Part shown: positions 3,658 to 25,388 of the stretch, piece by piece
Layout of the letters: each line of letters starts with the position of its first letter
Position numbering within the stretch: position 1 is the first letter of the stretch
IMG/VR virus record: IMGVR_UViG_3300045135_002802
Span: 1-25,814 of that record
Length of the DNA: 25,814 nt
DNA from: a virus
Direction: 5' to 3' (one strand)
The notes under the pieces: generated by a model
Told to the model about the DNA's origin: nothing
Databases searched by the model: none
What the model saw: only the letters and a program-made list of their open reading frames with translations
Translations under genes and position numbers: made by a program

Positions 3658-3679
3658 GTATTCTACTAAAAAGTATGAA

Positions 3680-4785: not shown

Positions 4786-4816
4786 AGAATTATCGTTAGG
4801 GTCTTAGTTTTGCCTA

Positions 4817-7012: not shown

Positions 7013-7057
7013 TTTGTTTTCCCCTTATCGATAATATTTGTTTTGCAAAACTATTGA

Positions 7058-7065
7058 TATTTACC
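7058..7065 (-). promoter_or_regulatory. Late promoter GGTAAATA for the 731-aa fibre gene
   Basis: Minus-strand GGTAAATA, with a predicted start near 7052 and a 40-base leader holding AAGGGG. The predicted start abuts a 12-base perfect palindrome, GTTTTGCAAAAC (7040-7051). The plus-strand promoter of the neighbouring gene lies back to back, 21 bases away. Confidence 0.65.
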
Positions 7066-7086
7066 GTATTACACTGTATAATGGGT

Positions 7087-7094
7087 GTTAAATA
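7087..7094 (+). promoter_or_regulatory. Late promoter GTTAAATA just ahead of a plus-strand gene
   Basis: GTTAAATA followed by C, ending 12 bases before the ATG at 7107. T4 spacing puts the start near 7100, leaving a leader of about 7 bases with no Shine-Dalgarno. The same octamer precedes the gene at 21138-21380 on the other strand. Confidence 0.55.
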
Positions 7095-7106
7095 CCGACG
7101 ATCACG

Positions 7107-7990: not shown

Positions 7991-9027
7991 TCAGCAAAGC
8001 CGTGCATGATAACGATACGTGCACCATCGTGTGGAGCCTCGATAGATGATCCATCACTACCACCAGTGAAGCTCATGGTGTCACCTGAGATGGTGTAGTT
8101 CTGCGTGGGCTCCTGCATCACGCCATCTACGTACACTATTATGTTGTTGGCCGCTGTAGGTGTGGTTGTCATTGTGAACTGCGTTGATGATCCATCACCA
8201 GTAAACACGTCTTTCGTTATGCTCGATGCCGCGGCCTCTGTACGCAACGCGGTATAGGTCGAACCGTCCAGGGAGACTTCATATTTGCCTGTTGTAGTAT
8301 TAAAGCGTATGATACCTTCCTGCGCCGATGGTCTCTCCGCAGTTGTTCCTGTCGGAACGACCACACCCGTCGTCGTGTTGAAGTCGAACAATCCCGTTCC
8401 CTGTGTGGTGAACGTCATGTCCGCATTGGTCACTATGTTTCCGATGTTGTTAGTGACGAATTCTGTGTTTCCTGTTGTAGTTGATAGGTTCTGTAGTCCT
8501 TTAGTGCCCGTGTATCTCGCACCTGATATGTACACCGACTTGCCCGTGAAGTCGATTCCATTCGGTAGGTTGGTACCTATGAAGTGTAGCACACCAGATT
8601 GGTAGTCAAAGAACCATTCATCGTTGTTGCCGGAACCTGTGGCGAACACCTGGTCACCGCTTGCCGCCGCGTTGCCGGCATCTGATGAAGTATGGATATA
8701 AACCTTAACTTGATATGTAGATCCTATCTCTGGTGGTATCCAGTCTGTCAGTCCAGTCTTCCATGATCTGTTGGCTGTTGATGTTCCGTCTGCTGTGGTC
8801 TCATTTGGTGTGCCAGTTGGATACACCGTGACCACTCCTGCGCTCGAACCCGGCATTGTACCTGGAATGCTTGACGCCTGGTTCCAAGTGTTGTCACCCC
8901 TTAGTAGTAATGGAGATGCGATGGCCTCGTTGGGTGCTTTCTTTAATGCGTTGGTGTCAGTTTTCGTGGCACCGTAACCCAATTTCTTCCAAAGGTAATC
9001 TACTTTTTTTGCGTCAGTTATTGCCAT
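7987..9027 (-). CDS. Virion/fibre-associated structural protein (MAITDxKKVDYLWKKLGYG type)
   Basis: 346 aa. The N-terminal ~110 residues (MAITDAKKVDYLWKKLGYG..., KAPNEAIASPLLLRGDNTW, then TDWIPPEIGSTYQVKVYI) match a type recurrent in marine T4-like phage structural clusters; no function is established that I know of. Residues 223-263 are the VPTGTTAERP...IRFNTTTGKYE module. Residues 270-346 are the GDGSSTQF...VYVDGVMQEPTQNYTISG module also present in the 731-aa and 155-aa proteins. The start codon overlaps the stop of the 1235-aa fibre gene (TAATG), so both are made from one mRNA, probably in a fixed ratio. This suggests a partner or tip/adaptor of that fibre. The 3' end is convergent with the plus-strand gene at 7634-7990, the two stops sharing TTAA. 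Confidence 0.85.
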   Translation of the reverse strand: MAITDAKKVDYLWKKLGYGATKTDTNALKKAPNEAIASPLLLRGDNTWNQASSIPGTMPGSSAGVVTVYPTGTPNETTADGTSTANRSWKTGLTDWIPPEIGSTYQVKVYIHTSSDAGNAAASGDQVFATGSGNNDEWFFDYQSGVLHFIGTNLPNGIDFTGKSVYISGARYTGTKGLQNLSTTTGNTEFVTNNIGNIVTNADMTFTTQGTGLFDFNTTTGVVVPTGTTAERPSAQEGIIRFNTTTGKYEVSLDGSTYTALRTEAAASSITKDVFTGDGSSTQFTMTTTPTAANNIIVYVDGVMQEPTQNYTISGDTMSFTGGSDGSSIEAPHDGARIVIMHGFAD

Positions 9028-12000: not shown

Positions 12001-12734
12001 GTGAGTGTGACAGTGTCTCCTAAACTGATTGATGTCGCGTCAGAAACGAATGAAACCGATTTGATATAGGTGCCCGCCTGCACGTTTCCTATCACTTCGT
12101 TTAGTTCATCTATGGCGTTGGTCACTGTGGTGTCTGATGCAAGTCCTAGGTATGCACCGTCACCGAACGTTGAGTCTGTTGGCAGTCGCAGTTCAACGTT
12201 GTCCCCCGTAACACCGCCTGACGAAACAGAAGCAATCTCGTTGTCCACATATTGCTTTGTGGTGACGTCATCGTTGGCGACCGGTGATGCCGCCTGTATG
12301 TTTGCCAGTGTAACGTTTGTGAAATCTGTTCTCGTTGATCCATCTTCCGGTGTGGTACCAAATCTGAATTTGTCTAGTGTCTCGTCCCAGTATAAAACTG
12401 CTTCGTCGGCGCCGGCACGTTGGATCATTATACCTGCGTCAGTGGCTGTGGAGTTGTTCTCGTTGATGGATATGATGTTGTCTTCTACGACTAAATTCTG
12501 TGAGTCTATGGTAGTGGTTGTGCCCTGTACAGTAAGGTCACCAGTGATGGTCTGGTTGCCCTGTACACGCATGTTGCCGTTAACATCAAGTTTAAAATTA
12601 CCTGGACTGTTTGTGCTTACACCAATCCTGTCATTTACTACATCTATGTAGAGTAAATCTGTCTGAAATGCTATGTCTGTCGAACGCAAAAGGTTCGATT
12701 CTAATATATCACCACTGATTCTGTTTATTGCCAT
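9027..12734 (-). CDS. Giant PKD-domain tail fibre/adhesin
   Basis: 1235 aa. Fibre N-terminus at 1-52 (MAINRISGDIL, FQTDLLYIDV, RIGVSTNSP). LTVQGTTTTIDSQNLVVED...YWDET module at 66-120 and KQYVDNEIASV at 160-170. Four PKD/Ig-like units follow: about 225-319 (TITWGDGDE), 325-445 (DVDWGDGSE), 455-568 (TWNFGEGDS) and a weaker one at 570-685 (YDFFDDSS). Residues about 690-1130 are beta-rich and unassigned. The last ~90 residues (SGLNGWLDAGITYGGSGVPG, a GNGGNGSNGC turn and SGDSITALSI) resemble a C-terminal fibre tip common in marine phages. PKD units usually act as rigid spacers or carbohydrate- or protein-binding modules at cell surfaces. A late promoter lies 11 bases before the ATG and no Shine-Dalgarno is visible, suggesting a near-leaderless mRNA. 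Confidence 0.87.
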   Translation of the reverse strand: MAINRISGDILESNLLRSTDIAFQTDLLYIDVVNDRIGVSTNSPGNFKLDVNGNMRVQGNQTITGDLTVQGTTTTIDSQNLVVEDNIISINENNSTATDAGIMIQRAGADEAVLYWDETLDKFRFGTTPEDGSTRTDFTNVTLANIQAASPVANDDVTTKQYVDNEIASVSSGGVTGDNVELRLPTDSTFGDGAYLGLASDTTVTNAIDELNEVIGNVQAGTYIKSVSFVSDATSISLGDTVTLTITTTPTAGANTRYTITWGDGDETTATTDSTPSHTYNANSGSPYTVVVKAFENDAGTTDSAGSFATSTRSNYITVATAEPVPSFAMYAAASGGSPITTADTGDTVYLQNNTTNTGGATVTYDVDWGDGSENAISGDGVAGGSSLNGGSRLAHTYTNASGDDGSTVAGTGAGDTKYSIRLRLLTHSTADPAVIPATTSSNFEVYSEHTPLYSVADSTIRGVNEEATSGFPVTFTNNTATNPGSNTDFSATQTYTWNFGEGDSNTVVNIGSGGSGDTGQTIANTFNLTSGQQSGGTTRTFTTSLTLANGHTNSTFSTNLNIIVEPDVRANIAGTAVTVSTGSGDNSLSLYDATDLDGNDRAIARFTNTSQNASSYEYDFFDDSSSITTVAEDGSTAGTIGATLDKDYSGTSVGNINFRFRASGTPDTIAQDDEETITFAMKSTPSAPNGLSSFSLTMADAAQGTNPHLCAGFDDNTSTADTLTAGASLESTTARRYTTTTTLDTNVINGFLVNDSNGTGSTVNQTVTASINASASGARTFTTTEGGANNGTFTKLVTSDHKDYDQVDSSYPQRLYLVTDAKITQALADYTVGVNAQRLESSAGGNTNYVHVVKDDITATPTTTIGTIAQGTAGTQRYVSGVPYYNTGSPTVTITGTTVANFTGQAYQDATDPHEVDPGTNQESTSGNVISATGYTYANIDGASSMLTGGIPNTDTGVSSAYTLGTLTQPLTTSSVRSVQQIKARSKNANGTGSYSESTTKIQVYTASLLTLDNEAGGITVSDSLGAGFDDDAVRISGFGSLSGDTPSLNDSSNANYYTDHAWSGAVTVAGTNEAISRFGTIKHFTTDLSSGYLPAGPDLATGRDGGEAQYYNFAFRRTTMANFTVRLSGTVSGFFIAAPGTAIDSASGLNGWLDAGITYGGSGVPGSDTGNGGNGSNGCAFTSGDRIIDGTSYSNQTFTLTLGSENATNATGNNVLIRIKLESGDSITALSIE

Positions 12735-12747
12735 AATACTACAATGG

Positions 12748-12755
12748 TATTTACC
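12748..12755 (-). promoter_or_regulatory. Late promoter GGTAAATA for the PKD fibre gene
   Basis: Part of the near-palindrome GGTAAATACC (12746-12755), identical to the one at 16033-16042. The predicted start near 12742 leaves an 8-base leader without a Shine-Dalgarno. Confidence 0.65.
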
Positions 12756-12781
12756 AAATTATCGTACGAGTCTCTTCCTAC

Positions 12782-12789
12782 CATAAATA
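12782..12789 (+). promoter_or_regulatory. Late promoter CATAAATA for the plus-strand fibre gene
   Basis: Seven of eight match to TATAAATA, ending 8 bases before the ATG at 12798. The predicted start near 12795 implies a leader of about 3 bases. It is back to back with the minus-strand promoter at 12748-12755. Confidence 0.6.
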
Positions 12790-12797
12790 TTCTTAAT

Positions 12798-13664
12798 ATG
12801 GCACTATTACCTATCAGTAAAATAGAAAAAATTTCTGAAAAACGTGTTGATGTGCAACAGGTCAACGTGTATGAAAACTCTGTCAGCGGTGATGCAATCC
12901 ATGGTGGAAAAATTACGAATTTCAGCAGTGAAGGCATAAAGGACAAGGCAGATTCTGTACAAATCACAGTGAGAAATGACAAAGTAGAAATCGAAAAGGA
13001 TCTAGTTGTCAAGGGCACAGTTACCGTAGAAAACCTCAAGTATGTTGAGGCGGAGGTTCCTAAACTGAATGTAAAAGATGCCATAATGATAGATCATAAC
13101 GAAGTGATTTGGAAGCATACACTAGGTAAAAGTGTGCAAAAAAGCAGTCTTACTGAGGTAGGAGTTTTAAAAAAATTACAGGTAGACAAGACATTTTTTG
13201 CAAATCAACAGCGTGTAGGAATCAACACAGAGGCACCGTCTGCTGATTTTTCAGTAAACGTTGGAGGGTACGAAGTGATCACTAGAATGCAAGAGAGAAA
13301 TGCATTCGTTGGCACTCATGCGCCTGTGCCGTTTGCAATAGGAACCGACGACACAGCAAGAATTGTTTGTAAATCAAACGGCGATGTGGCAATCGGCAGT
13401 GAGGACGGACGCTACGTAAAGATGAATGTGTGGGGACAAGTGGGTATCGGAGTTAAGAACCCGCAAGAGAGCCTGCATGTGTCTGGTAACATTAGGTTTG
13501 GTGACAAGACATTCGCATCAGGAAAGAGTTATCCAGGCCAGGGAAGATGGGAAACTGGATCTGTTGTTTGGAACGACATGCCAGAAATAAACCAACCTGT
13601 TGGTTGGGTATGTATAAAAGGAGGAACGCCCGGTTCGTGGCGTCCGTTTGGACTAATATCCTAA
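12798..13664 (+). CDS. Tail fibre/appendage protein on the opposite strand
   Basis: 288 aa from the ATG at 12798 (MALLPISKIEKISEKRVD...). An in-frame ATG at 12744 exists but would place the promoter motif inside the coding sequence. Residues about 58-80 hold a VEIEKDLVVKGTVTVENL element like the NLTVxGT fibre module. VGINTEAPSADFSVNVGG (140-157) and VGIGVKNPQESLHVSG (215-230) are two copies of the VGIGT..P..LHV fibre element. The C-terminus (GRWETGSVVWNDMP, VGWVCIKGGTPGSWRPFG) is a phage fibre-tip type ending. It is Lys/Glu/Val-richer than the Thr/Ser/Ala-rich minus-strand fibres, consistent with a separate origin. The gene is convergent with the operon ending at 13801 (or 13653); no terminator is visible. 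Confidence 0.8.
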   Translation: MALLPISKIEKISEKRVDVQQVNVYENSVSGDAIHGGKITNFSSEGIKDKADSVQITVRNDKVEIEKDLVVKGTVTVENLKYVEAEVPKLNVKDAIMIDHNEVIWKHTLGKSVQKSSLTEVGVLKKLQVDKTFFANQQRVGINTEAPSADFSVNVGGYEVITRMQERNAFVGTHAPVPFAIGTDDTARIVCKSNGDVAIGSEDGRYVKMNVWGQVGIGVKNPQESLHVSGNIRFGDKTFASGKSYPGQGRWETGSVVWNDMPEINQPVGWVCIKGGTPGSWRPFGLIS

Positions 13665-13850
13665 TTCAAAACAACAACTGAATCTGGTCTGAAAGAAGTA
13701 ATGGTATATGATTATACCAATTATTATGCCTTCTAGTAAAGCAATGATGGCGCAAGGCACAGGATATCTTTTGATTATCTTGATTTTGAATTTATAGAAT
13801 TTATTCGCCCAACTTGTGAAGGTTGTGAATAATTGCGATAATGTGGGCAC
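13653..13850 (-). CDS. Possible 65-aa single-span membrane protein, GTG start
   Basis: The frame opens with GTG at 13850 inside the end of the 155-aa gene (50-base overlap). GGAG is placed 6 bases upstream. It ends 12 bases into the 3' end of the convergent plus-strand gene. Residues 20-29 are basic (FKIKIIKRYP), followed by a hydrophobic stretch at 31-52 (CAIIALLEGIIIGIIIYHYF), a plausible inner-membrane helix. It fills the otherwise empty 136-base gap at 13665-13800. No family is recognised. Such a protein could be a small lysis or membrane-modifying factor, but nothing in the sequence proves it. A TATAAATT motif inside the gene (13789-13796) may be chance. Confidence 0.42.
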   Translation of the reverse strand: MPTLSQLFTTFTSWANKFYKFKIKIIKRYPVPCAIIALLEGIIIGIIIYHYFFQTRFSCCFELGY

Positions 13851-14268
13851 TGTCTACTCCGTTATTGGCAGGTGGTGCAGAACCAAATGTCACAGCGCCT
13901 CCCGAGTAAGTGTAGTTAGTGCCTGGCACTTGGTACACTCCGCCAATGAATATTGCCATGTCGGTGGCATCTGTTGGTGTTGTTGACAGTGTCGCCGCTG
14001 TCGAGCCGTCAAGCGTGTTACCCGAACCATTGCCGAACACAGTCGTTGATCCGTCTCCTTGGAACTTGTCCACAGTCAAAGTCTTCTCTCCAGCCGCACT
14101 TGATATGTTGTACCATTGCGATCCAATGTAACCTTGATAAGTTGATGTGGTGGTGTTGAATATGATCTGACCGTCCTGTCCTGTGGGTCTGTTGGCAGTT
14201 GACACTTGTGGTATCTCTACCGAAGTAGCACCGTGTTCTAGTTCTCTGTTTTTAACGAACCTTCCCAT
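13801..14268 (-). CDS. Small fibre/virion protein (155 aa)
   Basis: MGRFVKNRELEHGATSVEIP starts the protein; the opening resembles the MGRPIRKDK start of the 140-aa protein at 15510-15932. Residues 19-58 are the TANRPTGQDGQIIFNTTTSTYQGY...WYNI module. Residues 65-150 are the GDGSTTVF...IFIGGVYQVPGTNYTYSGG module with a SAPP turn. Both modules recur in the 731- and 346-aa proteins. The gene starts 4 bases after the stop of the 109-aa gene and is the third in an operon from the promoter at 15450. AGGA lies 10 bases upstream of the ATG. It is a structural protein by module content; the place in the virion is unknown. Confidence 0.8.
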   Translation of the reverse strand: MGRFVKNRELEHGATSVEIPQVSTANRPTGQDGQIIFNTTTSTYQGYIGSQWYNISSAAGEKTLTVDKFQGDGSTTVFGNGSGNTLDGSTAATLSTTPTDATDMAIFIGGVYQVPGTNYTYSGGAVTFGSAPPANNGVDSAHIIAIIHNLHKLGE

Positions 14269-14272
14269 GGTA

Positions 14273-14602
14273 TTACAATCCTATCGTTGATACTGTTACT
14301 ATTACTTGTCCTGTTGAGTCAGCGTTCTGCACATAGATTTTATCACCGTTTCCGAGTATCATTTTCTCAGTGTCAATGATGTAACTGTCAGTCGCCTGTA
14401 TTGTCAGTGAGTTGTAAATCTTGTTGTTCTCTGTTGGCACGGTTGTTGAACCGTCATTTGGCAAAAGATATACGTCGATTGTGGCATCTGAACTTGTGAT
14501 GTTGCAGAGATGTATTGACGTCACAGCCGTGTCAGCCGTGGCCTCAAATGCATGATCCAGTGCTGTAATAGTTGTTGGTGCTGTTCTTTGTGTAATCGCC
14601 AT
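14273..14602 (-). CDS. Small beta-rich virion protein (109 aa)
   Basis: Begins MAITQRTAPTTITALDHAFE. It has a pattern of short beta strands: AVTSIHLCNITSSDATIDVYLL, then IYNSLTIQATDSYIIDTEKM, ILGNGDKIYVQNAD and VIVTVSTIGL. This is typical of small phage beta-sandwich proteins found beside fibre genes, but I cannot name a family. AGGA sits just upstream of the ATG, 3 bases after the stop of the 278-aa gene. It lies in the middle of a three- to four-gene operon of small virion proteins. Confidence 0.78.
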   Translation of the reverse strand: MAITQRTAPTTITALDHAFEATADTAVTSIHLCNITSSDATIDVYLLPNDGSTTVPTENNKIYNSLTIQATDSYIIDTEKMILGNGDKIYVQNADSTGQVIVTVSTIGL

Positions 14603-14605
14603 ATG

Positions 14606-15442
14606 TTATCCTAACGCAATGGCCAAAGCCGTTGCTTTCTTTTTACTTATCAGTTCTCCCTCTGTGCCTGAACTGATGCTTGAGTTGATGAAATACAGGC
14701 CAGTGCCTCCACCGCCTGCTGTCTTGTTGTATAATTTTGTTACTGTGGATGCCGCTGGTGTGCTTGCCGCACCAGAGAAAGTTAATGTGTCATTTATCAC
14801 CACATCGCCTGTACCGTTCGTGATCAGGGTCAAATCGCCATTAGAGGAATCACTGGTAATAGATGTGATATTTGTCAAGTCTGGGTCCAGCGTCACTGTA
14901 ACGGTGTCTGGTTCCGTAGCGGCTGTAGTAATACCGTTGGCGCCTGAAAATTGCAAAGTGTTACCTGTACCAACTGTTACCTGTGCAGAATCGTCACCTG
15001 CCACTTTAAGACTGAAACCACCACCAACTGTGGTGTCAACATAGTTTTTTGTCGCGACATCTGATGTGTTGCTTGGTTCCGCCGCCCTTATGTTGGCCAG
15101 TGCTGTATCTGTGATTGATGAGCCGGTGCCATCTGAAGTGGTAGTCACTGCCTTGAAAACGTCATCGCCTTCATTCCAATATATGGCCGCATTGTTGGCC
15201 GCACCCCTGTTCACTAATATACCTGCGTCTATGTCACTCGGTGTAGAGTTGTTTCTGCTGAGCACTATCACAGGATCCGAAACAGCAAGTGTGGTCGTGT
15301 CGATTACTGTCTGTGTGCCCTCAATATCCAGGTTTCCTTTGACCACCACCGCTCTCGAGTCGAGGATAATGTCGTTTGTACCACCCGCACCGGACCCTGC
15401 CTTGATGTTGTAGTCCGCTGAAGTTCTAAGAGTTTTAGCCAT
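14606..15442 (-). CDS. Fibre/structural protein with shared NLTVxGT module (278 aa)
   Basis: Residues 1-36 (MAKTLRTSADYNIKAG...NDIILDS). Residues 37-98 are the NLDIEGTQTVIDTTTLAVSDP...NRGAANNAAIYWNEGDDVF module. ANIRAAEPSNTSDVATKNYVD at 116-136 is equivalent to the segment before the PKD region in the 1235-aa fibre. The C-terminus (STVTKLYNKTAGGGGTGLYF, then GELISKKKATALAIALG) is a distinctive ending seen in marine T4-like structural proteins. It is the first gene of an operon with the 109- and 155-aa genes. A perfect TATAAATA lies 7 bases before the ATG and no Shine-Dalgarno is present, so the mRNA is predicted to be leaderless. Confidence 0.82.
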   Translation of the reverse strand: MAKTLRTSADYNIKAGSGAGGTNDIILDSRAVVVKGNLDIEGTQTVIDTTTLAVSDPVIVLSRNNSTPSDIDAGILVNRGAANNAAIYWNEGDDVFKAVTTTSDGTGSSITDTALANIRAAEPSNTSDVATKNYVDTTVGGGFSLKVAGDDSAQVTVGTGNTLQFSGANGITTAATEPDTVTVTLDPDLTNITSITSDSSNGDLTLITNGTGDVVINDTLTFSGAASTPAASTVTKLYNKTAGGGGTGLYFINSSISSGTEGELISKKKATALAIALG

Positions 15443-16569: not shown

Positions 16570-17745
16570 TTACGCGAATTTTAAGTTTCCGTTTGTTACA
16601 CCTACTGTGTTTACGTAGTCAGCCGCGTTACCTAGTGAAGATGCAGTGTTTGTTAATTCAACATAACCGTATCTAGTTAGGAAACCTACAACTGGTTCGA
16701 AAGTAGCAGGATCTAGTACAACGCCTGAAGACATTAAAGGAATGTAAGGACAATAGAACGCTGGAGCGTCTGCCTCACTTGCACCTTTGTAACCTACAAG
16801 TACGTCTGTACCGTCAGAAGCGTATGCGTCAACGTATACTCTCATAGCACCGTTTAAAGTACCAACGAATTTAGTGTTTGTTGGTGCTTCGAATGTACCT
16901 TCAGTTGATCTTGCGAACGCTGAAGTTGTTGCTGATTGAAGTACAGTTAAAGCAGTTGGAGATACTACAGCGTAGTTTCCAGCGCCTCTTCTTGTTCTTG
17001 TTGCGATTTCATTCGCCGCTCTGTTGATCAACACAGCCAATGCCGCGTGTTCATCACCAACGAATGTAGCAGTACCAGATACAGCAGATTGATCATACGT
17101 ACCTGAACTTGCCGAACCGGCTAATGTTCTTAATGATCCGATGATCTCTTGGTCGATCTCAGCAGTAATCTCTTGAGCTAATGCCGCCATGATTTCTGCT
17201 TCTACATCGATACCTTGCTGTGCTTGAGCATCTTGAGCCGCTTCAAAAGTCCATCTAGCAGAAAGTTTTCTAGATTTCGCTTCAACCGGTTGTTTCAAGA
17301 TCTGGATTGATAATCTCTTACCAGGTGTACCCTCTAAAGAGGCAGTTGATGCACCTTTAGGTGTAGAGTTGTTCTGGTTACCAGAGTATGCTTTCGCGAT
17401 TTTGAATGGAGATAATGCTTCTTCACCTGCTGTCGTGTTTGACGCAACTGTGTCTGCATATCTTATTCTTAATGTGTGGATTTGTCCTACAGGACCAGTC
17501 ATTGGTTGTACACCTACGATCTCGTTAGCGATCACAGTTGGCATAACCCTTCTGATTACTGGTAGGATAACCCTGTTTAACGTAGCAACGTTACCTGCAG
17601 ATGTGGCACCAGCAGTTGACTGCTCAGCCAAGTATCTCTTCGTGTTTTCTAACACGACATCCATAGTTTTTTTCTTGTTGCCTGTTAAACCTTCGGTTAG
17701 GGCCTGTTTAGTTTCGCCCCATTTTGATTCAAATATATCTGACAT
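16570..17745 (-). CDS. 23: Major capsid protein (T4 gp23-like)
   Basis: 391 aa. It contains gp23-type segments: VATLNRVILPVIRRVMPTVI and NEIVGVQPMTGPVGQIHTLR early, FEAAQDAQAQQGIDVEAEIM in the middle, and YCPYIPLMSSGVVLDPATFE followed by VGFLTRYGYV near the end. It forms the capsid hexamers. The N-terminal propeptide probably ends at LAE (39-41) before QSTAG, fitting the L/I-x-E specificity of gp21. At 391 aa it is much shorter than T4 gp23 (521 aa), implying a reduced or absent insertion domain. The Shine-Dalgarno AAGGGG is well placed. It is the last gene of the head operon, 22 bases after gp22, and is closed by a strong terminator. Confidence 0.96.
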   Translation of the reverse strand: MSDIFESKWGETKQALTEGLTGNKKKTMDVVLENTKRYLAEQSTAGATSAGNVATLNRVILPVIRRVMPTVIANEIVGVQPMTGPVGQIHTLRIRYADTVASNTTAGEEALSPFKIAKAYSGNQNNSTPKGASTASLEGTPGKRLSIQILKQPVEAKSRKLSARWTFEAAQDAQAQQGIDVEAEIMAALAQEITAEIDQEIIGSLRTLAGSASSGTYDQSAVSGTATFVGDEHAALAVLINRAANEIATRTRRGAGNYAVVSPTALTVLQSATTSAFARSTEGTFEAPTNTKFVGTLNGAMRVYVDAYASDGTDVLVGYKGASEADAPAFYCPYIPLMSSGVVLDPATFEPVVGFLTRYGYVELTNTASSLGNAADYVNTVGVTNGNLKFA

Positions 17746-17767: not shown

Positions 17768-18835
17768 TTAATTAATACCCGCTAATTTACGGATATTGGT
17801 TAAGTCAGCATCTTCCCTTTGTGCTCTGTCACCTTTTGCTTCTGTCATAACTTGTTTGGCAGTTTCAACTGGTTTGTCAGCCATCACATGTGGTAGATAC
17901 TTGTCGAATGAAGCCTGTAACTTGTCTGTTTGAACTGATTCAAGCAGTTGGCTCATAACTTCACCCTTTTCTTTGCCCAATGGTTTGAGCATCTCAGCCA
18001 TCTTTTCCTTGCGTTCCATCAAGTCCGCTTGTCTTTTGGCTTCCGCCTCTTTGGACTCAATCACCGCTTGTTTCTCTTCGACGGCTTTCTCAGCGTCTCT
18101 TAACTTAAGAGTGGTTTCATCCACTACTTTCATTAACTTCGCAGTCTCAGACTTCTCATTTAAGTAAGAATTCTGGTACTCCGATGAGAACGCTTCGAAT
18201 ATTTTCTTGCCAAAGTTGATTTCTCTAGCCGCTGTGATGTCTTCTTTAAGAGCTTTTAACTCTTCAGCAAGTTTTTTGTTTACAGCAGACTCTACAACTT
18301 TAGCAGATCTTGTAATGAAAGCCTCTTTCATCTTGGCCATTTGTTTTTTGGCCTCGGCTACTAGTTTGACTTTCGTCTCCACAACGCCTTTTTTGTCTTC
18401 ATGGAACTCTTTAATTTCTTTTGCAAGAGCGTTTACTACGAACTCTTCCATTTTGTTAAAGTTTTCATGCACACCTTTTCTGTCGTTGTGTAGTTCTTTC
18501 AACTCCTCTGACAACTTCTGCATTATGAATTCCTGCAGTTTGGCAGAGTGAGCGCCTACGTTTTCTTTGTAGGCAATTTTTTCTTGTGCTAGTGCTTTTC
18601 TGTCTTCCACGAACTTCGTGATTTCCTCAGATAACTTCTCAGTCATCATCTTGTCAATCGCTTCGATCATGTTAGATTTGTCATGTTCGTATCTTTTTGC
18701 GAACTCTTCTCTTAACTCCGCACTAACATTTTCTCTATTTTCCTTGATTTTTGAATCCCAAGCCTCTTGGATAGACTTTTGAACGTCTTCCGATATGGCT
18801 CCTGACTCAACAAGTTTTGATATTGCATCGATCAT
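17768..18835 (-). CDS. 22: Prohead scaffold protein (T4 gp22-like)
   Basis: 355 aa, longer than T4 gp22 (269 aa). It is almost wholly charged and helical (repeated KEIKEFHEDKKGV / LKELHNDRKGV type segments, then EKQAVIESKEAEAKRQADLM), consistent with a long coiled-coil core scaffold. The C-terminal part (MLKPLGKEKGEVMSQLLESV, then NIRKLAGIN) resembles gp22 of marine T4-like phages. It assembles the prohead core and is then degraded by gp21. It starts one base after the gp21 stop (TAACATG), with AGGA 11 bases upstream of the ATG, so gp21 and gp22 are probably translationally linked. The assignment follows from composition and strict gene order. Confidence 0.92.
   Translation of the reverse strand: MIDAISKLVESGAISEDVQKSIQEAWDSKIKENRENVSAELREEFAKRYEHDKSNMIEAIDKMMTEKLSEEITKFVEDRKALAQEKIAYKENVGAHSAKLQEFIMQKLSEELKELHNDRKGVHENFNKMEEFVVNALAKEIKEFHEDKKGVVETKVKLVAEAKKQMAKMKEAFITRSAKVVESAVNKKLAEELKALKEDITAAREINFGKKIFEAFSSEYQNSYLNEKSETAKLMKVVDETTLKLRDAEKAVEEKQAVIESKEAEAKRQADLMERKEKMAEMLKPLGKEKGEVMSQLLESVQTDKLQASFDKYLPHVMADKPVETAKQVMTEAKGDRAQREDADLTNIRKLAGIN
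17784..17791 (-). promoter_or_regulatory. Possible variant late promoter CGTAAATT ahead of gp23
   Basis: Minus-strand CGTAAATT, near the gp22 stop, differs by one base from the CGTAAATA upstream of gp20. A start near 17778 would give a 33-base leader with AAGGGG. No perfect TAAATA core exists before gp23, so this is the best local candidate. It is weak evidence alone. Confidence 0.3.
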
Positions 18836-18836
18836 G

Positions 18837-19466
18837 TTATTTTAGGTCCTTTATTATGTTTGTTAGGGCATCTTTCAGATACCTTTGTGCTTTTGGGTCA
18901 TTTCTAACTTCGGCCGCCAAACCTTTCGCCATGTTACCACCCTTGGTGTTCATTAGGTGTTCGTAAATTGGCGTTGGGTAAGCACCTGGTGCCGAAGGTT
19001 GGGCTACCACGTCAACTGTGATGATCTCGAAATCTGAAACTTCGCCACCGCCGTACTCGGAAATGTTACCACTTCCTCTTGACGATACGCCCAGTTTCAC
19101 ACCCGATTCCAACATAGTCTTCACAAGTGAGCCCATTGGTGTCGGCAAAATCTTCATCTTGCCGTATCCATTTGGACCATCCATCCACATTTCAGTAATC
19201 ATGTGAGACACACGGTCCAAATTAATCTTTAAATCATCTGGATGGTCAACTTCACCTAACACTGAGTATCCAGAACTGATCTGATCGTTCAGTGTCTTTG
19301 TCGCTTTGGCGATCTCTGACACAGGATAAACTCTCTGATTAGCGTTCTTGATCCCACCTTGGATACAGATGCCCTTCATGTACAAATCCTTACCGTCTTT
19401 TCCCTCGTGTAAGACCTGCACCCTGGCCTGATCAAAAGTTAGATTCTCCCTTAGGTATAGTGACAT
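18837..19466 (-). CDS. 21: Prohead core protease (T4 gp21-like)
   Basis: 209 aa, matching the length of T4 gp21 (212 aa). It is a herpesvirus-assemblin-like serine protease that matures the prohead. The GEVDHP segment carries the likely catalytic His75, and GVSSRGSGN (126-134) holds the likely nucleophile Ser (128 or 129). Other conserved parts are GICIQGGIKNANQRVYP (32-48) and FEIITVDVVAQPSAPGAYPT (146-165). A strong GGGAG lies 6 bases before the ATG. It sits between the core protein and scaffold genes, as in T4. Its expected targets in this window are the core protein, gp22 and the gp23 propeptide. Confidence 0.96.
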   Translation of the reverse strand: MSLYLRENLTFDQARVQVLHEGKDGKDLYMKGICIQGGIKNANQRVYPVSEIAKATKTLNDQISSGYSVLGEVDHPDDLKINLDRVSHMITEMWMDGPNGYGKMKILPTPMGSLVKTMLESGVKLGVSSRGSGNISEYGGGEVSDFEIITVDVVAQPSAPGAYPTPIYEHLMNTKGGNMAKGLAAEVRNDPKAQRYLKDALTNIIKDLK

Positions 19467-19489: not shown

Positions 19490-20419
19490 TTACTTAGAAG
19501 CAACTGGTGATTTTGCTGATTTGTCTGATCCGTCAGCAGTTGCAGGTTTAACTTCTTTCTTCATTGAAGAAGATTTGTCTTTTCCTGGACTGTTTTCGAA
19601 CTCACCCATTTTTTGTGCAGTTGGAGCCGGTCTTCCTTTGTCTTCTGCTCCGCCTTTGGCGATGTTTGCACCACCTTGGCCCATTTTAGTTCCTGCATCT
19701 GCTACTGGTGATTTTGCAGACTTGTCAGATCCGTCAGTGTTGTTCGCAGATTTTTGGATCTTGTATTCTTTTACAGTTTCCTTTGTGTCTGCTTCTTTGC
19801 TTTCCACTGGCATTTCTGGAGTTTCTTGAGCTGGCATTTCAACGGCCTCTTCTTTTTCTTCTTCGCCGTCGTCTTTCTTGCTCATCATTGCTTCGAATTC
19901 TGCTTTTAATTCGTCTAAAGCGTCTTCCAAGTCAACAACTCTGTCTTCCATATCTTCTTCGCCCTTGTCAGCGTCCATGTCTGCTGGCATTTCTTCGCCT
20001 TTGTCTGCATCCATTTCGCCTTCTTCTTCGGCTGATATGTCTTTAACCAATTCGTCAGTTGCGTCACCGCCTACTTCTTCGATTGATTCTTCTTCAGTTG
20101 TTTCAGATTCTGTTGCTTCGTCTTCTAATTCAACAACTTCATCTACTTGCTCGTCTTTAGATTCTTCAGAAGTCTCTTCAACTTTCTCATCTTTTGCTTC
20201 TTCTGTAGTTTCTTCTACTTTCTCTTCCTCAGATGCTTCAGTCTCTTTAACTTCTTCTTTAGACTCTTCTTTAGCCTCAGCAGTCACTTCCTCATCCGCT
20301 AGGTTCTCGTAGATTTCTCTAGATTTTTCTACTACGATTTCGTGGAATAGTGCTTCTGCTTTGTCGTTTTCTTCGTTTATCAGTAATTCTAATAAACTCT
20401 CAAATTTATTATTTGACAT
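19490..20419 (-). CDS. Prohead core protein, very acidic (T4 gp67/gp68 position)
   Basis: 309 aa. The N-terminus (MSNNKFESLLELLINEENDK, then AEALFHEIVVEKSREIYENL) matches the prohead core proteins of marine T4-like phages. Residues about 43-215 are dominated by Glu/Asp with Lys, with internal repeats (EEKVEETTEEAKDEKVEET, ADKGEEMPADMDADKGEE). The C-terminal third is a Lys/Ser/Gly-rich tail with DGSDKSAKSPVA twice (near 228 and near the end). It probably fills the prohead core with gp22 and is cleaved by gp21. It is far larger than T4 gp67 (80 aa) or gp68 (141 aa). The start has AAAGGAG 8 bases upstream and its own TGTAAATA promoter. It begins the core-21-22-23 unit. Confidence 0.88.
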   Translation of the reverse strand: MSNNKFESLLELLINEENDKAEALFHEIVVEKSREIYENLADEEVTAEAKEESKEEVKETEASEEEKVEETTEEAKDEKVEETSEESKDEQVDEVVELEDEATESETTEEESIEEVGGDATDELVKDISAEEEGEMDADKGEEMPADMDADKGEEDMEDRVVDLEDALDELKAEFEAMMSKKDDGEEEKEEAVEMPAQETPEMPVESKEADTKETVKEYKIQKSANNTDGSDKSAKSPVADAGTKMGQGGANIAKGGAEDKGRPAPTAQKMGEFENSPGKDKSSSMKKEVKPATADGSDKSAKSPVASK

Positions 20420-20463
20420 TACACGTGCTCCTTTATTGTCGATTTGTACTTATAAGTGTACTG

Positions 20464-20471
20464 TATTTACA
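20464..20471 (-). promoter_or_regulatory. Late promoter TGTAAATA for the core-21-22-23 unit
   Basis: Minus-strand TGTAAATA directly follows the terminator of the glycosyltransferase-like gene. The predicted start near 20458 gives a 39-base leader with AAAGGAG. Confidence 0.65.
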
Positions 20472-20481: not shown

Positions 20482-20519
20482 AAAAAGGGCACATTAACTG
20501 GCAAAAAATGTGCTTTTTT
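20482..20519 (-). terminator. Terminator after the glycosyltransferase-like gene
   Basis: GCACATT/AATGTGC stem (arms 20489-20495 and 20507-20513) with an 11-base loop. It is flanked by A6 and T5 on the minus strand; CC interrupts between stem and T5. It overlaps the end of the gene's stop codon. Confidence 0.7.
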
Positions 20520-21138
20520 AGCCTAATTTCAGTTGTAAATTGAACTTTGATAGGAATTCTTCGGTGGTCATGTGATCAATGTTGCCATTCCACTCGAGAT
20601 CTTTTGGTTGGAACCAGCCCTTTGGTATGACTCTATGGAATTTGGCATCAGGAAAATCCTGTAGGCATCGCTTTGTTTGGTTCATCCAGTTACCATAGAA
20701 AGTTGCTTCGTCTTTTTTTCTTTTGTAATTCCTGGTGTCCCCAAACATGTTGTTCAATTTGAAGCCACTTCCTACTTTGTGCCCTTGGTAGTCAAAACCC
20801 AGTATGTAAATGTCCTTGAATCCTAGGTCTAAGGCTAGTCTTAGGGCAGTCGGGCCCGAACTCCAGCCGAGACTTGGTTTGAACCAGTTGCAATGATCGA
20901 GTATTTTTTGATTTTTGTTGTACTGTGCATTGAAATTCGAATAGACCTTGTTGTTGATCATGTAATCACCTTCGGCTATTTCCATGATCATCTTGGGATC
21001 AACAGCAATCAGGAAGTCAGGTCGGTGTGTCCTGTACACAGCGTTGCAGGCAAACACCTTGCCTTGCTGTTTGAGATCATCTATGTCGATGCCCCTTCGG
21101 GATTCTCCGTTACCTAGTACAAATGCTGTGTTGGACAT
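20518..21138 (-). CDS. Putative glycosyltransferase-like protein (DUF115/GT42-like fold)
   Basis: 206 aa. The N-terminus AFVLGNGESRRGIDIDDL followed by VFACNAVYRTHRPDFLIAVD resembles the GNGPS start of CstI/II-type (GT42) sialyltransferases and DUF115/MptE-like proteins. SSGPTALRLALDLGFKDIYI then LGFDYQG matches their second conserved segment (SG...A.ALG...I...G.D). A Lys/Arg-rich middle and a C-terminal GWFQPKDLEW segment complete it. No catalytic residue can be assigned with confidence. Its start shares bases with the preceding 80-aa gene's stop (TAATG). It is an insertion into an otherwise canonical T4 head operon, closed by its own terminator. It could modify a virion protein or host surface sugar, or be a non-enzymatic nucleotide-sugar binder. 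Confidence 0.72.
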   Translation of the reverse strand: MSNTAFVLGNGESRRGIDIDDLKQQGKVFACNAVYRTHRPDFLIAVDPKMIMEIAEGDYMINNKVYSNFNAQYNKNQKILDHCNWFKPSLGWSSGPTALRLALDLGFKDIYILGFDYQGHKVGSGFKLNNMFGDTRNYKRKKDEATFYGNWMNQTKRCLQDFPDAKFHRVIPKGWFQPKDLEWNGNIDHMTTEEFLSKFNLQLKLG

Positions 21139-21380
21139 TATAACTCTAAGTTATCGTCTTGTGCTGGTGTACCGTACATCTTTTGGACAAACACGGCCTC
21201 TTCCTTCTGTTGTTCGTCGTGTGCTTCTGACGCCAACCTCATTGAATTGATGTCTTTCAGTGTTAATCTTGTTTTCCTTGTGTCTCCGTCGTCTAATATA
21301 GAGATGTCGTTCTCGGGTTCGTAGGTCTTGTCCTGTTCAAACCCGTCTGCGCCATATGTGAAGAATTCAAATAGTTTCAT
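21138..21380 (-). CDS. Small head protein in gp67 position (80 aa)
   Basis: MKLFEFFTYGADGFEQDKTY... with RKTRLTLKDINSMRLASEAH followed by a charged helix and the end MYGTPAQDDNLEL. Small proteins with a similar DTRKTRLTL and MYGTP pattern are familiar directly downstream of gp20 in marine T4-like phages, where T4 itself has gp67 (also 80 aa, a prohead core protein). Homology to gp67 is not visible, so the link is positional. It is 17 bases from the gp20 stop. That gap holds AAAGGG and a GTTAAATA motif only 6 bases before the ATG, so it could be read both from gp20 mRNA (with Shine-Dalgarno) and from its own leaderless transcript. Confidence 0.78.
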   Translation of the reverse strand: MKLFEFFTYGADGFEQDKTYEPENDISILDDGDTRKTRLTLKDINSMRLASEAHDEQQKEEAVFVQKMYGTPAQDDNLEL

Positions 21381-21397: not shown

Positions 21398-23143
21398 TTA
21401 TACCTGTCCACCACCACCTGTGCCGCCTGGGGTCGTGCCTCCGCCCCCTTGTCCTCCCGGTGTCTGACCCGGTTGTCCCGGTTGTGGTGAGTCCGGTCCT
21501 GGTGCTTCTGCGTCTGCTGTTGGTTCCTCGAACTGATCTAGGTCACTCGAAATGCCGGATTGTGTCACGCCTGCACTTCTAAGTTGATTAGATTTGGTCT
21601 GTTTCTTCTGTGGTACGTTGTTTTCTTCTGCCCAGAGCTCTGCGTTCCTTGCCATTTCTTCTTCAGTAAGTCCAAGATATCTCTTCAAGGCGAATCTCTT
21701 ACTCATGTAAGGTAGTTCCGCCACTGCTGTGAATGTGTTCACCCTTGCTTGGTCCATTTCTGTTTGTCTGTACTGTGCAAAGTTCTGTGGTGGATTCAAT
21801 TTCAGTTCAAACATTCCGTTGTCAATGTTATAACCTTTGGATTTGATCCATAATTTGAATTCTTCGTCAAATGTTGCCGCCAACATCGATTGCAATCTAG
21901 CACAATACTTGTTGAATCTCAATTCTTGTATGTAAGCAGTACCCACCCTGCCGTCATTGTACTGTTGCTGTCCGTCTTCTGCTCCAGTTGGCAGATATGA
22001 ACTTGGAATTCTCAGTCCTCTAAACAGTTTGTTTGTGAAATATCTTAGATCATCGATCTCACCTAGGTTTGTACCACCTGGAAGTGTGTCAACTTTAGAT
22101 CCTCTACCCTCTGCTGTCTGTGGGAAGAAGTAATCTTCGTTGATCGACATTGGGTTGTATGTAGCGTCTATGAAGTTGGCACCACCTGACGCACTTGGAA
22201 TCCTTCTTTGGTTTATCTCGTTCTTCACTCTCTCAACGAACTGCATCGCCAAGTGTGTTGGCATGTTACCCACGTCGATGTAGAAAACCCTTCTTTCAGG
22301 TGCTCTTTGAACCCTGTAAATTATGATCGCGTCCTCTAATAATTCTTTCTGTTTGTAAACTTTGAATACCTGTTCTAGAACCGATTGTCCAAATGGGAAA
22401 AGGTTGTCTAAACCGTCTGACATACTCATGTGTATCACATGTTCCGCGTTTATGTTGTACGCATTCATGGTCCTGTAAAATCTTCCACCTGACATTCCAC
22501 CTGCAAAGCCTGACATATTATTTGTAGCACCGGCGTTTGCATAACTTGATCCATATGCCGCAGTACCGCCACCTGTTGTTCCACCTCCACCGTACGTTTG
22601 GTTTGGTGTTATCTGTGTCGCGGATAGTCTCTGTAGGTTTGGATTGATGTCTCTGATCACATACTGCTCTGGCTTCTTGCCTTCGGATTCGTTTACTACG
22701 ATCCTGTCAACTTTTGCGTTGTCAACGTAAAGCCATTTCATGGTTTCTGGATCTCTGACAAAGAAACAGTCTCCGTATTTCAGTGCGTTCCTGAATATCC
22801 TGAAGATTCTCTTGTTGAATTGATTTGATTTCGTCCATTGCTGTAACGCTTTCTTCAACAACTTGACTTCGTGGTCTGTTGTCTCGTCCTTGAACACTAT
22901 GTCAAACGGTGTCTCGTTCTCCGTGTTCTTCTGTGTTGAGAATTCTGCTAGGATGTCCAACGCGGCGTTGATCTCCGAGTCTGAATCCATCTGGTCATAC
23001 TGGAAGTATCTCTGGATCCTGTTAGGGTGTCCTGTGTAAACGTCCGGCAGGTAAGAACTGTAGTTTCTCTTTGCGAAATTTGGCACTTTCTCTCCAGATA
23101 TTGGAGACATGTTAGCGTCTTTGAAGTATTTTTTCCAAGCCAT
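21398..23143 (-). CDS. 20: Portal protein (T4 gp20-like)
   Basis: 581 aa (T4 gp20 is 524). It forms the dodecameric portal vertex for DNA entry and tail attachment. T4-type segments include YSSYLPDVYTGHPNRIQRYF near the start, DSDSEINAALDILAEFST, FPFGQSVLEQVFKVYKQKEL, EDAIIIYRVQRAPERRVFYI, the FFPQTAEGRGSKVDTLPGG block and GLRIPSSYLPTGAEDG. Two low-complexity parts are unusual: a Gly/Ser/Ala-rich insertion at about 183-222 and a Pro/Gly/Gln tail from about 535 to the end. Only a distant AGGA lies before the ATG. A CGTAAATA promoter motif is present in the end of the upstream gene. It heads the head-morphogenesis block. Confidence 0.97.
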   Translation of the reverse strand: MAWKKYFKDANMSPISGEKVPNFAKRNYSSYLPDVYTGHPNRIQRYFQYDQMDSDSEINAALDILAEFSTQKNTENETPFDIVFKDETTDHEVKLLKKALQQWTKSNQFNKRIFRIFRNALKYGDCFFVRDPETMKWLYVDNAKVDRIVVNESEGKKPEQYVIRDINPNLQRLSATQITPNQTYGGGGTTGGGTAAYGSSYANAGATNNMSGFAGGMSGGRFYRTMNAYNINAEHVIHMSMSDGLDNLFPFGQSVLEQVFKVYKQKELLEDAIIIYRVQRAPERRVFYIDVGNMPTHLAMQFVERVKNEINQRRIPSASGGANFIDATYNPMSINEDYFFPQTAEGRGSKVDTLPGGTNLGEIDDLRYFTNKLFRGLRIPSSYLPTGAEDGQQQYNDGRVGTAYIQELRFNKYCARLQSMLAATFDEEFKLWIKSKGYNIDNGMFELKLNPPQNFAQYRQTEMDQARVNTFTAVAELPYMSKRFALKRYLGLTEEEMARNAELWAEENNVPQKKQTKSNQLRSAGVTQSGISSDLDQFEEPTADAEAPGPDSPQPGQPGQTPGGQGGGGTTPGGTGGGGQV

Positions 23144-23178: not shown

Positions 23179-25317
23179 CTAAACTAGGCCTACTTGATTA
23201 CGATCTTTCCGTGCTGTGGTTTCAACGGCTTTTAATGCCCGAGATTCTACTGCAACAAGCGTATTTACGCCATTGACCATATTCGCTAACGCCTTGTTGG
23301 CGTTGTTTAGTTCTGTGGTCATGGTGGCCATCTTGTTTTCCAGTGCTTCTGTGTTGAATGTGTTCTTTAGATCCTGGTTAGCAACTACGGTGCTTTTGGT
23401 TCCAGCGGTTACCATTTCCGGTCCTCGCTCACCTACAAGGTAAGTTTTTCCCGTGTCCATTCCACCACCAAACTGTCTTTCACCACCAAAGAATGCGCCA
23501 GCACCCTGTCCTAGGCTTCCGCCCAGAGATGCTCCAAGTAGTGCACCGCCCGGTCCGCCCAACATGAACCCAGCGATTCCGCCCAGACCCATCCCTATGA
23601 GGCCACCCAAGCCAGAGGCATTGTCGTCTTTGTCCTTGTTTAGCAGTTGATTTCCCACTGATAGTCCTGTAAGCGCCACACCGGCCGCTCCCAGTCCTCG
23701 TCCGACGTTGCTGTTGAGTGCCGACCTAATGCCACCACCGGCACGTGCTCCTTTGTCCTTGCCACCGGTCAGCGTCTGAAACAATCCGCCCCCGGTTCTG
23801 GCCATCCTGAATCCTAGTTCCGTACCCTTGGCTATTATTCCGATCTGTATTGCTTTGCTGAACAGGAACTTACCGCCAAGCCCTGCTATCAGCAGACCCG
23901 CGGACACCACGGGCATTTGTGCCAGTGCCGTTGCAATGGCACCTCCTGCTCCCAATGTTGTCTTAAGTGTTCCCACGAGGCCTCCAAGTGCCGGACCAAA
24001 CGATTTCAGTAAGGCAGTTTCTATTCCTTGGAACTGACTTGATAAAACTTTTGTGGCATCCTCGAAAGTAGTAAGGTTCCTTACGAGGCTGGTCGCTGAC
24101 CTGTTCTGCTCGTCCAGCACCGCACCTGCGTCGGTTACCCTTCTCCCTAGTTCTATGATACCACCTTGAAGCCTTAGGAATTCGACCTGTCCAGTCACAG
24201 TGGCCTTTCTAAATCTATCTATGCTACCTGCCGAGATGTCTCTGATCCTTACCAGAGCCTCCTCACTGGTTGTTACTCCGCTTATCAGATCTCTTATCAC
24301 TTGTTGTGCACCAGGAATGTTTTGAACTAACGCCAGAGCGGATTCTGTAACCGGAACACCTGCGTTGGCAATCAGGTCTTGGAAGCCTTCGGCCAACTCC
24401 GGACTGATACCTGCCACCGTTCCCGCGAATGCCTGAAGTCTTTGACGTGTTGCATCTGTCTGTCCCTGGAGTGCGGCTTGGAACCTTTCATTGGCACGCT
24501 GTTGTTCTATCTGTTGTCGCAGTTCGTCTCTTTGCTGACCTGTTAGTTTTGCCAATCTGTCCAATTGCTCTGCGAAACTGATTGCACTGTCTCTACGTTG
24601 GGAGTCTGTGAGTAGGTTCAATATTCCTGTCCTTCTCTGCGAGTCTAGGTTCAAAAGCAGTGTCTCGTTGAGTTCATCAACAGTGAACCCCAGTGGCGCC
24701 AGTCTTTCTATTCCCACCTCTCTGGTGATCCTGCCCAGTTCCGCTATCCTCTTGGCACCTTCCGTGGTTGAGCCGAACAGCGCCGCTAGGTTAGATGAAT
24801 TATTTGCCACCAAGGACGCAAAGTCGTCCAACGGTAAGGCCGCAGATGCCGCCGCGGTCCTCAACTCCACTATGCTCTGACCAAAGTTGGCTCCAGTCTG
24901 TGAAAGTTGTCTGAATGTCTCAACGTTGGTGTCCAGCCTACGTCCCAGGAATCCCAGTCCCTTGATGTTGTCAGTGAACGCACTGATAGATCCCGATCCT
25001 TCGAACGCCGCCTTGCCCAGTCCCATGAAACTGTCGCCCAGTTTACCCAACTGTTGCAGTTGTTTGTTCTGTGCTTTTTTGAGGTCTTCGTATTCATCTA
25101 CTTGATCCTCGAGTGCGTTGTTTAGTTCTTGTCGGAGTTTTTTGTTTTTTACGTTTGAAGCGATTTCTTGTCGTGCGTCTCTGATCTTGTCACGGGCAAT
25201 CCTCGCCTCCTGGTCTGCGCTGGCCTTTTGCGCCCTTGCCTGTTTCTGGATCTCCTTGGAGAGATTCCTTACCGTATCACCTAATTTTTTCAACTCTTCT
25301 TCTGTGTATTCTGCCAT
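23179..25317 (-). CDS. Tape-measure-like tail protein
   Basis: 712 aa. Residues 1-95 are a charged coiled coil (EELKKLGDTVRNLSKEIQKQ...). A long helical, Gln/Arg/Leu-rich middle follows (about 120-430). Two hydrophobic Gly/Ala-rich stretches lie at about 440-500 and 565-615. TYLVGERGPEMVTAG at 625-639 is followed by a short coiled coil to the end. The VGERGPE segment near the C-terminus is a hallmark of many phage tape-measure proteins; the hydrophobic stretches fit the membrane-penetrating role. If fully helical it would span roughly 100 nm, similar to a T4-length tail. No clear gp29 homology was seen, so it may instead be another internal tail or head protein. Its promoter is a perfect TATAAATA; the nearest Shine-Dalgarno-like AAGGTG is 14 bases from the ATG. 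Confidence 0.75.
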   Translation of the reverse strand: MAEYTEEELKKLGDTVRNLSKEIQKQARAQKASADQEARIARDKIRDARQEIASNVKNKKLRQELNNALEDQVDEYEDLKKAQNKQLQQLGKLGDSFMGLGKAAFEGSGSISAFTDNIKGLGFLGRRLDTNVETFRQLSQTGANFGQSIVELRTAAASAALPLDDFASLVANNSSNLAALFGSTTEGAKRIAELGRITREVGIERLAPLGFTVDELNETLLLNLDSQRRTGILNLLTDSQRRDSAISFAEQLDRLAKLTGQQRDELRQQIEQQRANERFQAALQGQTDATRQRLQAFAGTVAGISPELAEGFQDLIANAGVPVTESALALVQNIPGAQQVIRDLISGVTTSEEALVRIRDISAGSIDRFRKATVTGQVEFLRLQGGIIELGRRVTDAGAVLDEQNRSATSLVRNLTTFEDATKVLSSQFQGIETALLKSFGPALGGLVGTLKTTLGAGGAIATALAQMPVVSAGLLIAGLGGKFLFSKAIQIGIIAKGTELGFRMARTGGGLFQTLTGGKDKGARAGGGIRSALNSNVGRGLGAAGVALTGLSVGNQLLNKDKDDNASGLGGLIGMGLGGIAGFMLGGPGGALLGASLGGSLGQGAGAFFGGERQFGGGMDTGKTYLVGERGPEMVTAGTKSTVVANQDLKNTFNTEALENKMATMTTELNNANKALANMVNGVNTLVAVESRALKAVETTARKDRNQVGLV
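23262..23269 (-). promoter_or_regulatory. Possible intragenic late promoter CGTAAATA ahead of gp20
   Basis: This is the only copy of the TAAATA core found inside a coding region. It lies in the last codons of the tape-measure-like gene, points at gp20 and would start near 23256, 113 bases before the gp20 ATG. Confidence 0.4.
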
Positions 25318-25380: not shown

Positions 25381-25388
25381 TATTTATA
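25381..25388 (-). promoter_or_regulatory. Late promoter TATAAATA for the tape-measure-like gene
   Basis: Perfect T4 late -10 element on the minus strand. The predicted start near 25375 gives a 58-base leader. It lies downstream of, and facing, the plus-strand promoter, so the two transcripts overlap by about 15 bases at their 5' ends. Confidence 0.75.

Follow-up and report, generated by a model that had tools for sequence, protein, structure and literature searches.

A DUF115/GT42-fold gene, putatively encoding a glycosyltransferase, in the head operon of uncultured T4-like phages

Why would an enzyme resembling glycosyltransferases be encoded among the genes that build a phage head? This question is raised by a 25,814-base virus fragment from IMG/VR (IMGVR_UViG_3300045135_002802; this whole stretch is referred to as the window), in which the initial annotation placed a DUF115/GT42-like protein, marked by the strings LGNGES and SSGPTALRLALDLGFKDIYI, between the gene at the T4 gp67 position and a prohead core gene. 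The gene and both strings of its translation were found in the window exactly there, and the neighbours defining this location were named by Pfam and PHROG matches to the S77 protease, gp23 and the portal protein (Table 1). The presence of a DUF115/GT42-fold enzyme in a probably late head operon is well supported. As for its role, the explanation tentatively preferred, with a confidence somewhat short of even, is that of a late glycosyltransferase of this fold attaching sugar to a structural protein of the virion. To our knowledge, few phages are known to carry glycosylated proteins on their particles, and the locus suggests that this group of uncultured T4-like viruses of bacteria may decorate its own particles with sugar.

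Table 1. Features of the head operon region of the window, in the direction of its genes
Feature	Coordinates	Strand	Remarks
TATAAATA, T4-late-promoter-like motif	25381..25388	-	64 bp upstream of the 712-aa gene
712-aa gene upstream of portal	23179..25317	-	Opens the predicted late unit; weak tape-measure-like PHROG match
Portal protein, gp20-like	21398..23143	-	phrog_213
80-aa gene at T4 gp67 position	21138..21380	-	phrog_13986; TAATG-coupled to the enzyme gene
206-aa DUF115/GT42-fold enzyme, putative glycosyltransferase	20518..21138	-	phrog_30607 family; ATG start
Terminator-like hairpin	20489..20513	-	Arms 20489-20495 and 20507-20513; 7-bp perfect stem, 11-nt loop, T-rich tail; not conserved
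GTAAATA, late-promoter-like site	20464..20470	-	Lies past the enzyme gene, ahead of the core genes
CTTATAAGTAC element	20446..20456	-	With the preceding base contains the palindrome ACTTATAAGT
309-aa Glu-rich prohead-core-like protein	19490..20419	-	Scaffold role presumed from position and composition
Prohead protease	18837..19466	-	Peptidase_S77 / phrog_207; Pfam and PHROG matches
355-aa core-like protein	17768..18835	-	phrog_10922; role presumed from position
Major capsid protein gp23	16570..17745	-	PF07068; Pfam and PHROG matches

Synteny and inheritance of the gene

The enzyme gene is flanked by the portal and 80-aa genes on one side and by the Glu-rich core gene and the S77 protease gene on the other. 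The upstream coupling that had been described was also observed, the TAA stop of the 80-aa gene overlapping the ATG of the enzyme gene (TAATG). The 80-aa protein showed 36% identity, over 45 aa, to the protein whose gene follows that of the portal in Sinorhizobium phage Phosso, and the window portal and gp23 were nearest to those of large T4-like phages, e.g., Phosso, Atu_ph07 and PA5oct; HTVC008M, which has a relative of the enzyme, was absent among the best-listed records for these two proteins. Three relatives were found on contigs filed with marine MAGs (TMED41, REDSEA, MED657), and the clade is therefore probably marine in part.

A protein scan of viral contigs revealed 260 relatives, of which the best 80, 72-99% identical, were analysed as a gene-fetched set. 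In these, the 80-aa gene was directly upstream of the enzyme gene in 80/80, a count that is conditional, since the set was chosen by the gene itself. All 80 presented an ATG start, which overlapped the 80-aa gene by one base in 70 and was separated from it by one base in 10, and the core gene came next in 76, the contig of the other four ending within ~130 bases of the gene. Because this set had been chosen by the enzyme gene, a second one, independent of it, was fetched with the protease (best 80 of at least 600 stretches). Among these 80 loci, protease identity was at least 88% in 42, of which 38 covered the slot and all 38 carried the gene, 3 being cut by a contig end, and it was 78-81% in the remaining 38, of which 30 covered the slot. 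The gene was found in 13 of these 30 distant slots, with enzymes 43-53% identical to the nearest query, and the other 17 were empty, with 122-190 bp in its place; 12 of the 80 protease-fetched rows do not cover the slot, and the slot table excludes L108-L112. Since 17 of the 30 covered slots are empty in this more distant lineage, the head does not need the enzyme. Phosso and Atu_ph07, two cultured relatives, carry other genes in the slot, and among 50,697 phage records only 3, all from Pelagibacter phages, contained any relative of the enzyme, in each case outside the head operon.

In a protease tree of 71 rows (54 with the gene and 17 empty), which is weakly resolved with many open forks and has the empty row L176 on a long branch, presence and absence require at least four changes, two of them forced by starred branches. 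Divergence of the enzyme tracks that of the head genes (Pearson 0.91-0.94), reaching 0.94 with the protease (n=96) and 0.94 with the portal (n=86). Median pairwise dN/dS, calculated for each gene from at most 150 randomly drawn pairs with 80-98.5% identity, was 0.092 for the enzyme, 0.104 for gp23, 0.044 for the portal and 0.189 for the 309-aa core gene, and the value for the enzyme is therefore that of a real coding gene under purifying selection. The enzyme gene is thus vertically inherited, syntenic across its clade and fixed within it. The possibility of a recent insertion into the operon of one phage was ruled out by the conserved synteny, the presence in the protease-fetched set, the tree and the head-gene-like divergence, so that the gene can be called inserted, as it originally was, relative to T4 and to the empty-slot sister lineages, but not within its own clade.

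Other genes also occur at this location. In one distant sublineage a methyltransferase-like gene was observed between the 80-aa and enzyme genes (L158:2716-3321, L165:2686-3282, L167:2695-3297, L180:1580-2176); in L158 and L180 it matched Methyltransf_24 below the Pfam cut-off, with a weak likeness to CmcI and rhamnosyl-O-methyltransferase. A ~200-aa gene was found between the enzyme and core genes in two loci (L138:2163-2756, L139:1316-1918), which indicates that the slot accepts other genes; the one in L138 gave no Pfam or PHROG match.

Transcription units around the gene

The gene had also been described as closed by its own terminator. A hairpin is indeed found in the window, folding weakly better than shuffles (z -1.39), and it was not among the three sites of a standard terminator scan of the window, its loop exceeding that scan's loop limit of 8. 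However, when the intergenic regions of 125 relatives were examined, only 4 contained a comparable perfect stem, and the proposed terminator is therefore a local feature rather than a conserved one.

By contrast with this hairpin, TAAATA was found before the core gene in all 125 gene-bearing and all 17 empty-slot intergenic regions. In the window, the longer form GTAAATA occurred at 4766, 7058, 12748, 16035, 20464 and 23262 (-), six of six on the strand that encodes the structural proteins, where 2.2 would be expected on both strands, and most of these sites lie shortly before the start of a structural gene; the one at 23262 is placed inside the 712-aa gene, ~120 bp before the portal start. 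From their likeness to T4 late promoters and their position, motifs of this type may be T4-type late promoters, and the six sites are likely the late-promoter set of the clade. A motif scan of the window revealed no late-promoter-like motif directly before the enzyme gene, for which reason its slot would be the tail of the portal unit, preceding the promoter-like site of the core unit. Late expression of the enzyme gene fits this arrangement of promoter-like motifs before the portal unit and the core genes, and the suggested timing with head assembly is consistent with it.

A further element, CTTATAAGTAC, was noticed near the core promoter-like site. The string TTATAAGTAC was kept beside TAAATA in 98 of 125 gene-bearing relatives, and TATAAGTA was present in only 2 of 17 empty-slot relatives; a regulatory function of this element is possible.

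Fold, family and active site

The structure of the enzyme was predicted with AlphaFold on an alignment of 23 rows (A1; the window and 22 of the 80 gene-fetched loci), giving a model with pLDDT 82.2 and pTM 0.83, in which residues 133-140 were poor. In a Foldseek search with this model, the sialyltransferases 9c08 and 2p56 were among the five matches at E<=0.001. Structural alignment of the model with VIA-align gave the Maf flagellin glycosyltransferase 5mu5 as best match (Z 12.0, rmsd 4.1, 172 residues), followed by Cst-I 2p2v (Z 11.3, rmsd 3.7, 177 residues), the archaeal MptE-type kinase 8sd5 (Z 10.2, rmsd 2.8 A, 138 residues), CstII and a Pasteurella sialyltransferase (Z 9.2-10.1, with 9.3-10.1 for CstII), the next distinct family being the thiamin pyrophosphokinases (Z 7.7 and 6.8). 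The DUF115/GT42-like assignment is thus borne out at the level of a predicted structure, the model presenting a nucleotide-sugar-enzyme fold. Nevertheless, a glycosyl transfer activity does not follow from the fold by itself, because among the top rows it is the kinase 8sd5 that has the lowest rmsd.

Profile searches led to the same families. The enzyme matched PF01973 (DUF115 / MptE-like) with 24.6 bits (E 2.5e-5, residues 26-117), below the gathering cut-off of 34.6 bits, and PF06002 (GT42) with 23.8 bits (E 3.8e-5, best stretch residues 5-39), below the cut-off of 25 bits; at E<=0.01, the two profiles were matched by 10 and 11, respectively, of 29 diverse members. The phrog_30607 profile was matched by the window enzyme (E 4.8e-29), by the distant head-slot member L187 (1.8e-28) and by a longer paralogue described below (3.4e-23), and an NCBIfam scan gave no name for the window enzyme or the paralogue. 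Two other resemblances were discarded: a match to plant ribosome-inactivating proteins (2qes, E 0.0027, in a single-sequence phmmer search of the PDB) was due to chance and disappeared with the 29-member profile, and the many short-chain dehydrogenases/epimerases returned by Foldseek aligned with VIA Z of ~5, a general Rossmann-like resemblance.

Conservation of the active site was examined in an alignment (A2) of 29 members, picked for diversity from 126 complete ORFs and reaching down to 38% identity to the window enzyme. About 40 residues, many of them polar, are strictly invariant, including GNG, R14, C31-N32, R36, D47, K49, W92-S-S-G-P96 (T97 beyond it excluded), G114-F-D116, N129-N130, Y138, N150-W151 and Q154. 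In a broader alignment (A4) of 13 chosen rows, comprising members from the head slot and from Pelagibacter phages as well as the island paralogue, the residues shared by every row were GNG, R14, G26, C31-N32, R36, D47, G95, Y111, G114, D116, N129-N130, T135, Y138 and W151. When aligned to CstII, the GNG loop falls on the GNG loop, N32 at Asn31, S94 at Ser132 and D116 at Asp154. The GNG loop, Asn31 and Ser132 of CstII are presumably nucleotide-site residues, and the corresponding columns G9-N10-G11, N32 and S94 were invariant in the 29 members. The catalytic base of these sialyltransferases is a histidine, His188 in CstII and His202 in CstI, according to PMC4202792. In the sequence alignment, Asn150, present in 29/29, takes the place of His188, and no histidine was invariant among the 29 diverse members; Cst-type catalysis is therefore unsupported. 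Of the catalytic residues whose conservation was in question, those of the nucleotide site are retained across relatives, but the Cst histidine is not; nucleotide binding thus seems to be preserved, unlike the Cst type of catalysis. Because an invariant asparagine replaces this histidine, the enzyme is regarded as a divergent phage branch (phrog_30607) of the DUF115/GT42 fold, not a proven member of GT42 or Maf and not to be filed as either. We infer that it would transfer sugar by means of a different base from the histidine of Cst.

Sugar context, rival explanations and known systems

Sugar chemistry for the family is supported by sugar-nucleotide genes, by the island of the paralogue and by the methyltransferase-like neighbours. 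A contig of the same species, which shares 97.6% identity with the window along 8.3 kb, carries two DegT aminotransferase and two epimerase matches, beside a carbamoyltransferase-like gene and others named by eye; one DegT match of this contig contains an in-frame TAA (L262:4872-5654, i.e., G003:C1:33595-34608), attributable to decay or to an assembly error. DegT aminotransferases were detected in 7 of 16 contigs and epimerases in 7 of 16, with no match to either in the gene-bearing contigs G004, G006 and G008-G011, which are possibly fragments. The longer paralogue of the enzyme occurs in 3 of the 16, adjoining a DegT aminotransferase and an epimerase on a contig ~91% identical to the window's tail region. 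Its surroundings form a sugar island (L217:68-7187, L218:6482-13985), with DegT aminotransferase, epimerase, asparagine-synthase-like, FkbM-like and several unnamed glycosyltransferase-like genes. A phage sialic acid pathway was also sought, and no sign of CMP-sialate synthesis was found: PF02348 (CMP-sugar synthetase), detected in 11 of 14 control genomes, was matched in 0 of the 16 contigs, many of them fragments, and the host could supply the donor.

Which molecule the head-slot member modifies does not follow from this context. The Ser+Thr content of candidate acceptors, 17.9% in gp23 and 22-27% in fibre-like proteins, is a lead only. The latter form a series at 306-15442 (-), poor in Lys and Arg, several of which share an N-terminal pattern (MAIGRI/MAINRI...). 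Two plus-strand genes, 7107-7637 and 7550-7990, were noticed amid these minus-strand fibre genes. For the first, 16 relatives were detected among viral contigs (42-100%), and by eye it seemed a second member of the family, its Rossmann-like outline being reminiscent of the enzyme fold; a profile comparison with the enzyme was colinear but insignificant (probability 1.1%, E 0.049), and its poor model (pLDDT 58.8) best matched an unrelated lipoprotein (Z 7.2), CstII coming sixth at 5.7. It is not claimed as such a member.

According to the preferred explanation, a small, single-domain, nucleotide-sugar-dependent glycosyltransferase of the DUF115/GT42 fold would be made late, in translational coupling with the 80-aa protein at the gp67 position, from the transcript of the portal gene, and would put sugar on a virion protein during assembly, be it the major capsid protein, another head protein or a Ser/Thr-rich fibre protein. 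By analogy with Maf and flagellin, it may act in the cytoplasm, adding O-linked sugar to the building blocks of a surface structure that assembles itself. A virion protein as acceptor is the best single reading of the gene's position. A bolder version, that it is a dedicated virion-protein glycosyltransferase of the Maf/Cst fold with a catalytic motif of its own (NN, T..Y, NW..QT; Asn for the Cst histidine), fixed in the head operon of uncultured T4-like phages whose particles are sugar-coated, partly with sugar from phage-encoded sugar-nucleotide genes, is possible and is put forward with clear reserve.

The paralogue's setting has another implication. Its island, with DegT aminotransferase, epimerase, asparagine-synthase-like and FkbM-like genes, is O-antigen-like, and the enzyme might instead modify host lipopolysaccharide or another envelope glycan, e.g., to block superinfection or keep progeny from re-adsorbing to debris, in which case its location among the head genes would serve for timing only. 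Host O-chain modification has been proposed for pelagimyophage glycosyltransferases in PMC7029224, where host-envelope changes are also a proposed use that sugar-nucleotide genes may serve, and the GT42 Cst enzymes act on lipooligosaccharide (PMC4202792). However, the envelope-type genes accompany the paralogue and not the head-slot gene, which tracks the head genes in place and divergence and is coupled to one of them in a late-looking unit, so that such a role is rather unlikely. Phage glycosyltransferases often act on DNA as well, as stated in PMC12619734 and PMC7029224, and a late unit beside the portal precedes packaging; even so, in the loci examined the enzyme gene directly adjoins head genes, and it is very improbable that the enzyme adds sugar to bases of the phage genome before packaging.

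The chemistry itself may also be questioned. PF01973 is the MptE-like family, the model aligns closely with 8sd5 and more loosely with the thiamin pyrophosphokinases at the Z values given above, and the acidic residues D47 and D116 are invariant, all of which would suit a nucleotide-dependent transferase of that branch, moving a diphosphate or nucleotidyl group to a protein or small molecule. This is improbable in view of the higher Z of Maf and Cst-I, the alignment of the N-terminal GNG..S and SSG motifs with the Cst enzymes and the association of the paralogue with sugar genes, and a glycosyltransferase is likely rather than a kinase-type enzyme. Finally, the missing Cst base and the position among core and scaffold genes could point to a catalytically dead fold serving as a head-assembly chaperone or minor head part, but an invariant set so large and so polar would be unusual for a pure binding role, and this is the least probable of the readings considered.

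If a virion protein is indeed glycosylated, phrog_30607, a phage family without a name, would gain a function, and the DUF115/GT42 fold would have a catalytic variant that lacks its customary histidine. Moreover, a conserved gene in the head operon, together with natural empty-slot sister lineages, offers a built-in comparison for the roles of virion glycans, among which escape from receptors, debris or grazers, stability and timing may be asked about.

No paper describing a glycosyltransferase in a T4-like head operon was found in the open-licence literature, which is not proof of absence. The nearest phage relatives, gp007 of Pelagibacter phage HTVC008M and Mosig_00142 (phrog_30607), present the same motifs at 27-33% identity, but they are 267-281 aa long and lie outside the head operon, whereas the window enzyme has 206 aa and lies within it. 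With the GT42 enzymes Cst-I and CstII it has the fold in common, and the GNG.S, Asn31, SSG and GxD motifs could be aligned; unlike them, it presents Asn150 in place of the histidine base and scores below the PF06002 cut-off. The fold and a PF01973 match, also below the cut-off, are shared with MptE and archaeal HPPK (8sd5). In mycobacteriophages, glycans have been found on capsid and tail-tube subunits (Freeman et al. 2023, as cited in PMC12619734), which is a case of sugar on the particle subunits of other phages. In Maf, the central PF01973 domain, predicted to be the best structural match of the window enzyme, is one of three and resembles Cst-II, and its acceptors are Ser/Thr residues of flagellin, according to PMC11339370. 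The window enzyme has a single domain and 14% identity to Maf; Maf acts, per the same text, on the subunits of a self-assembling surface structure, and the same is proposed here for the enzyme encoded in the phage head operon.
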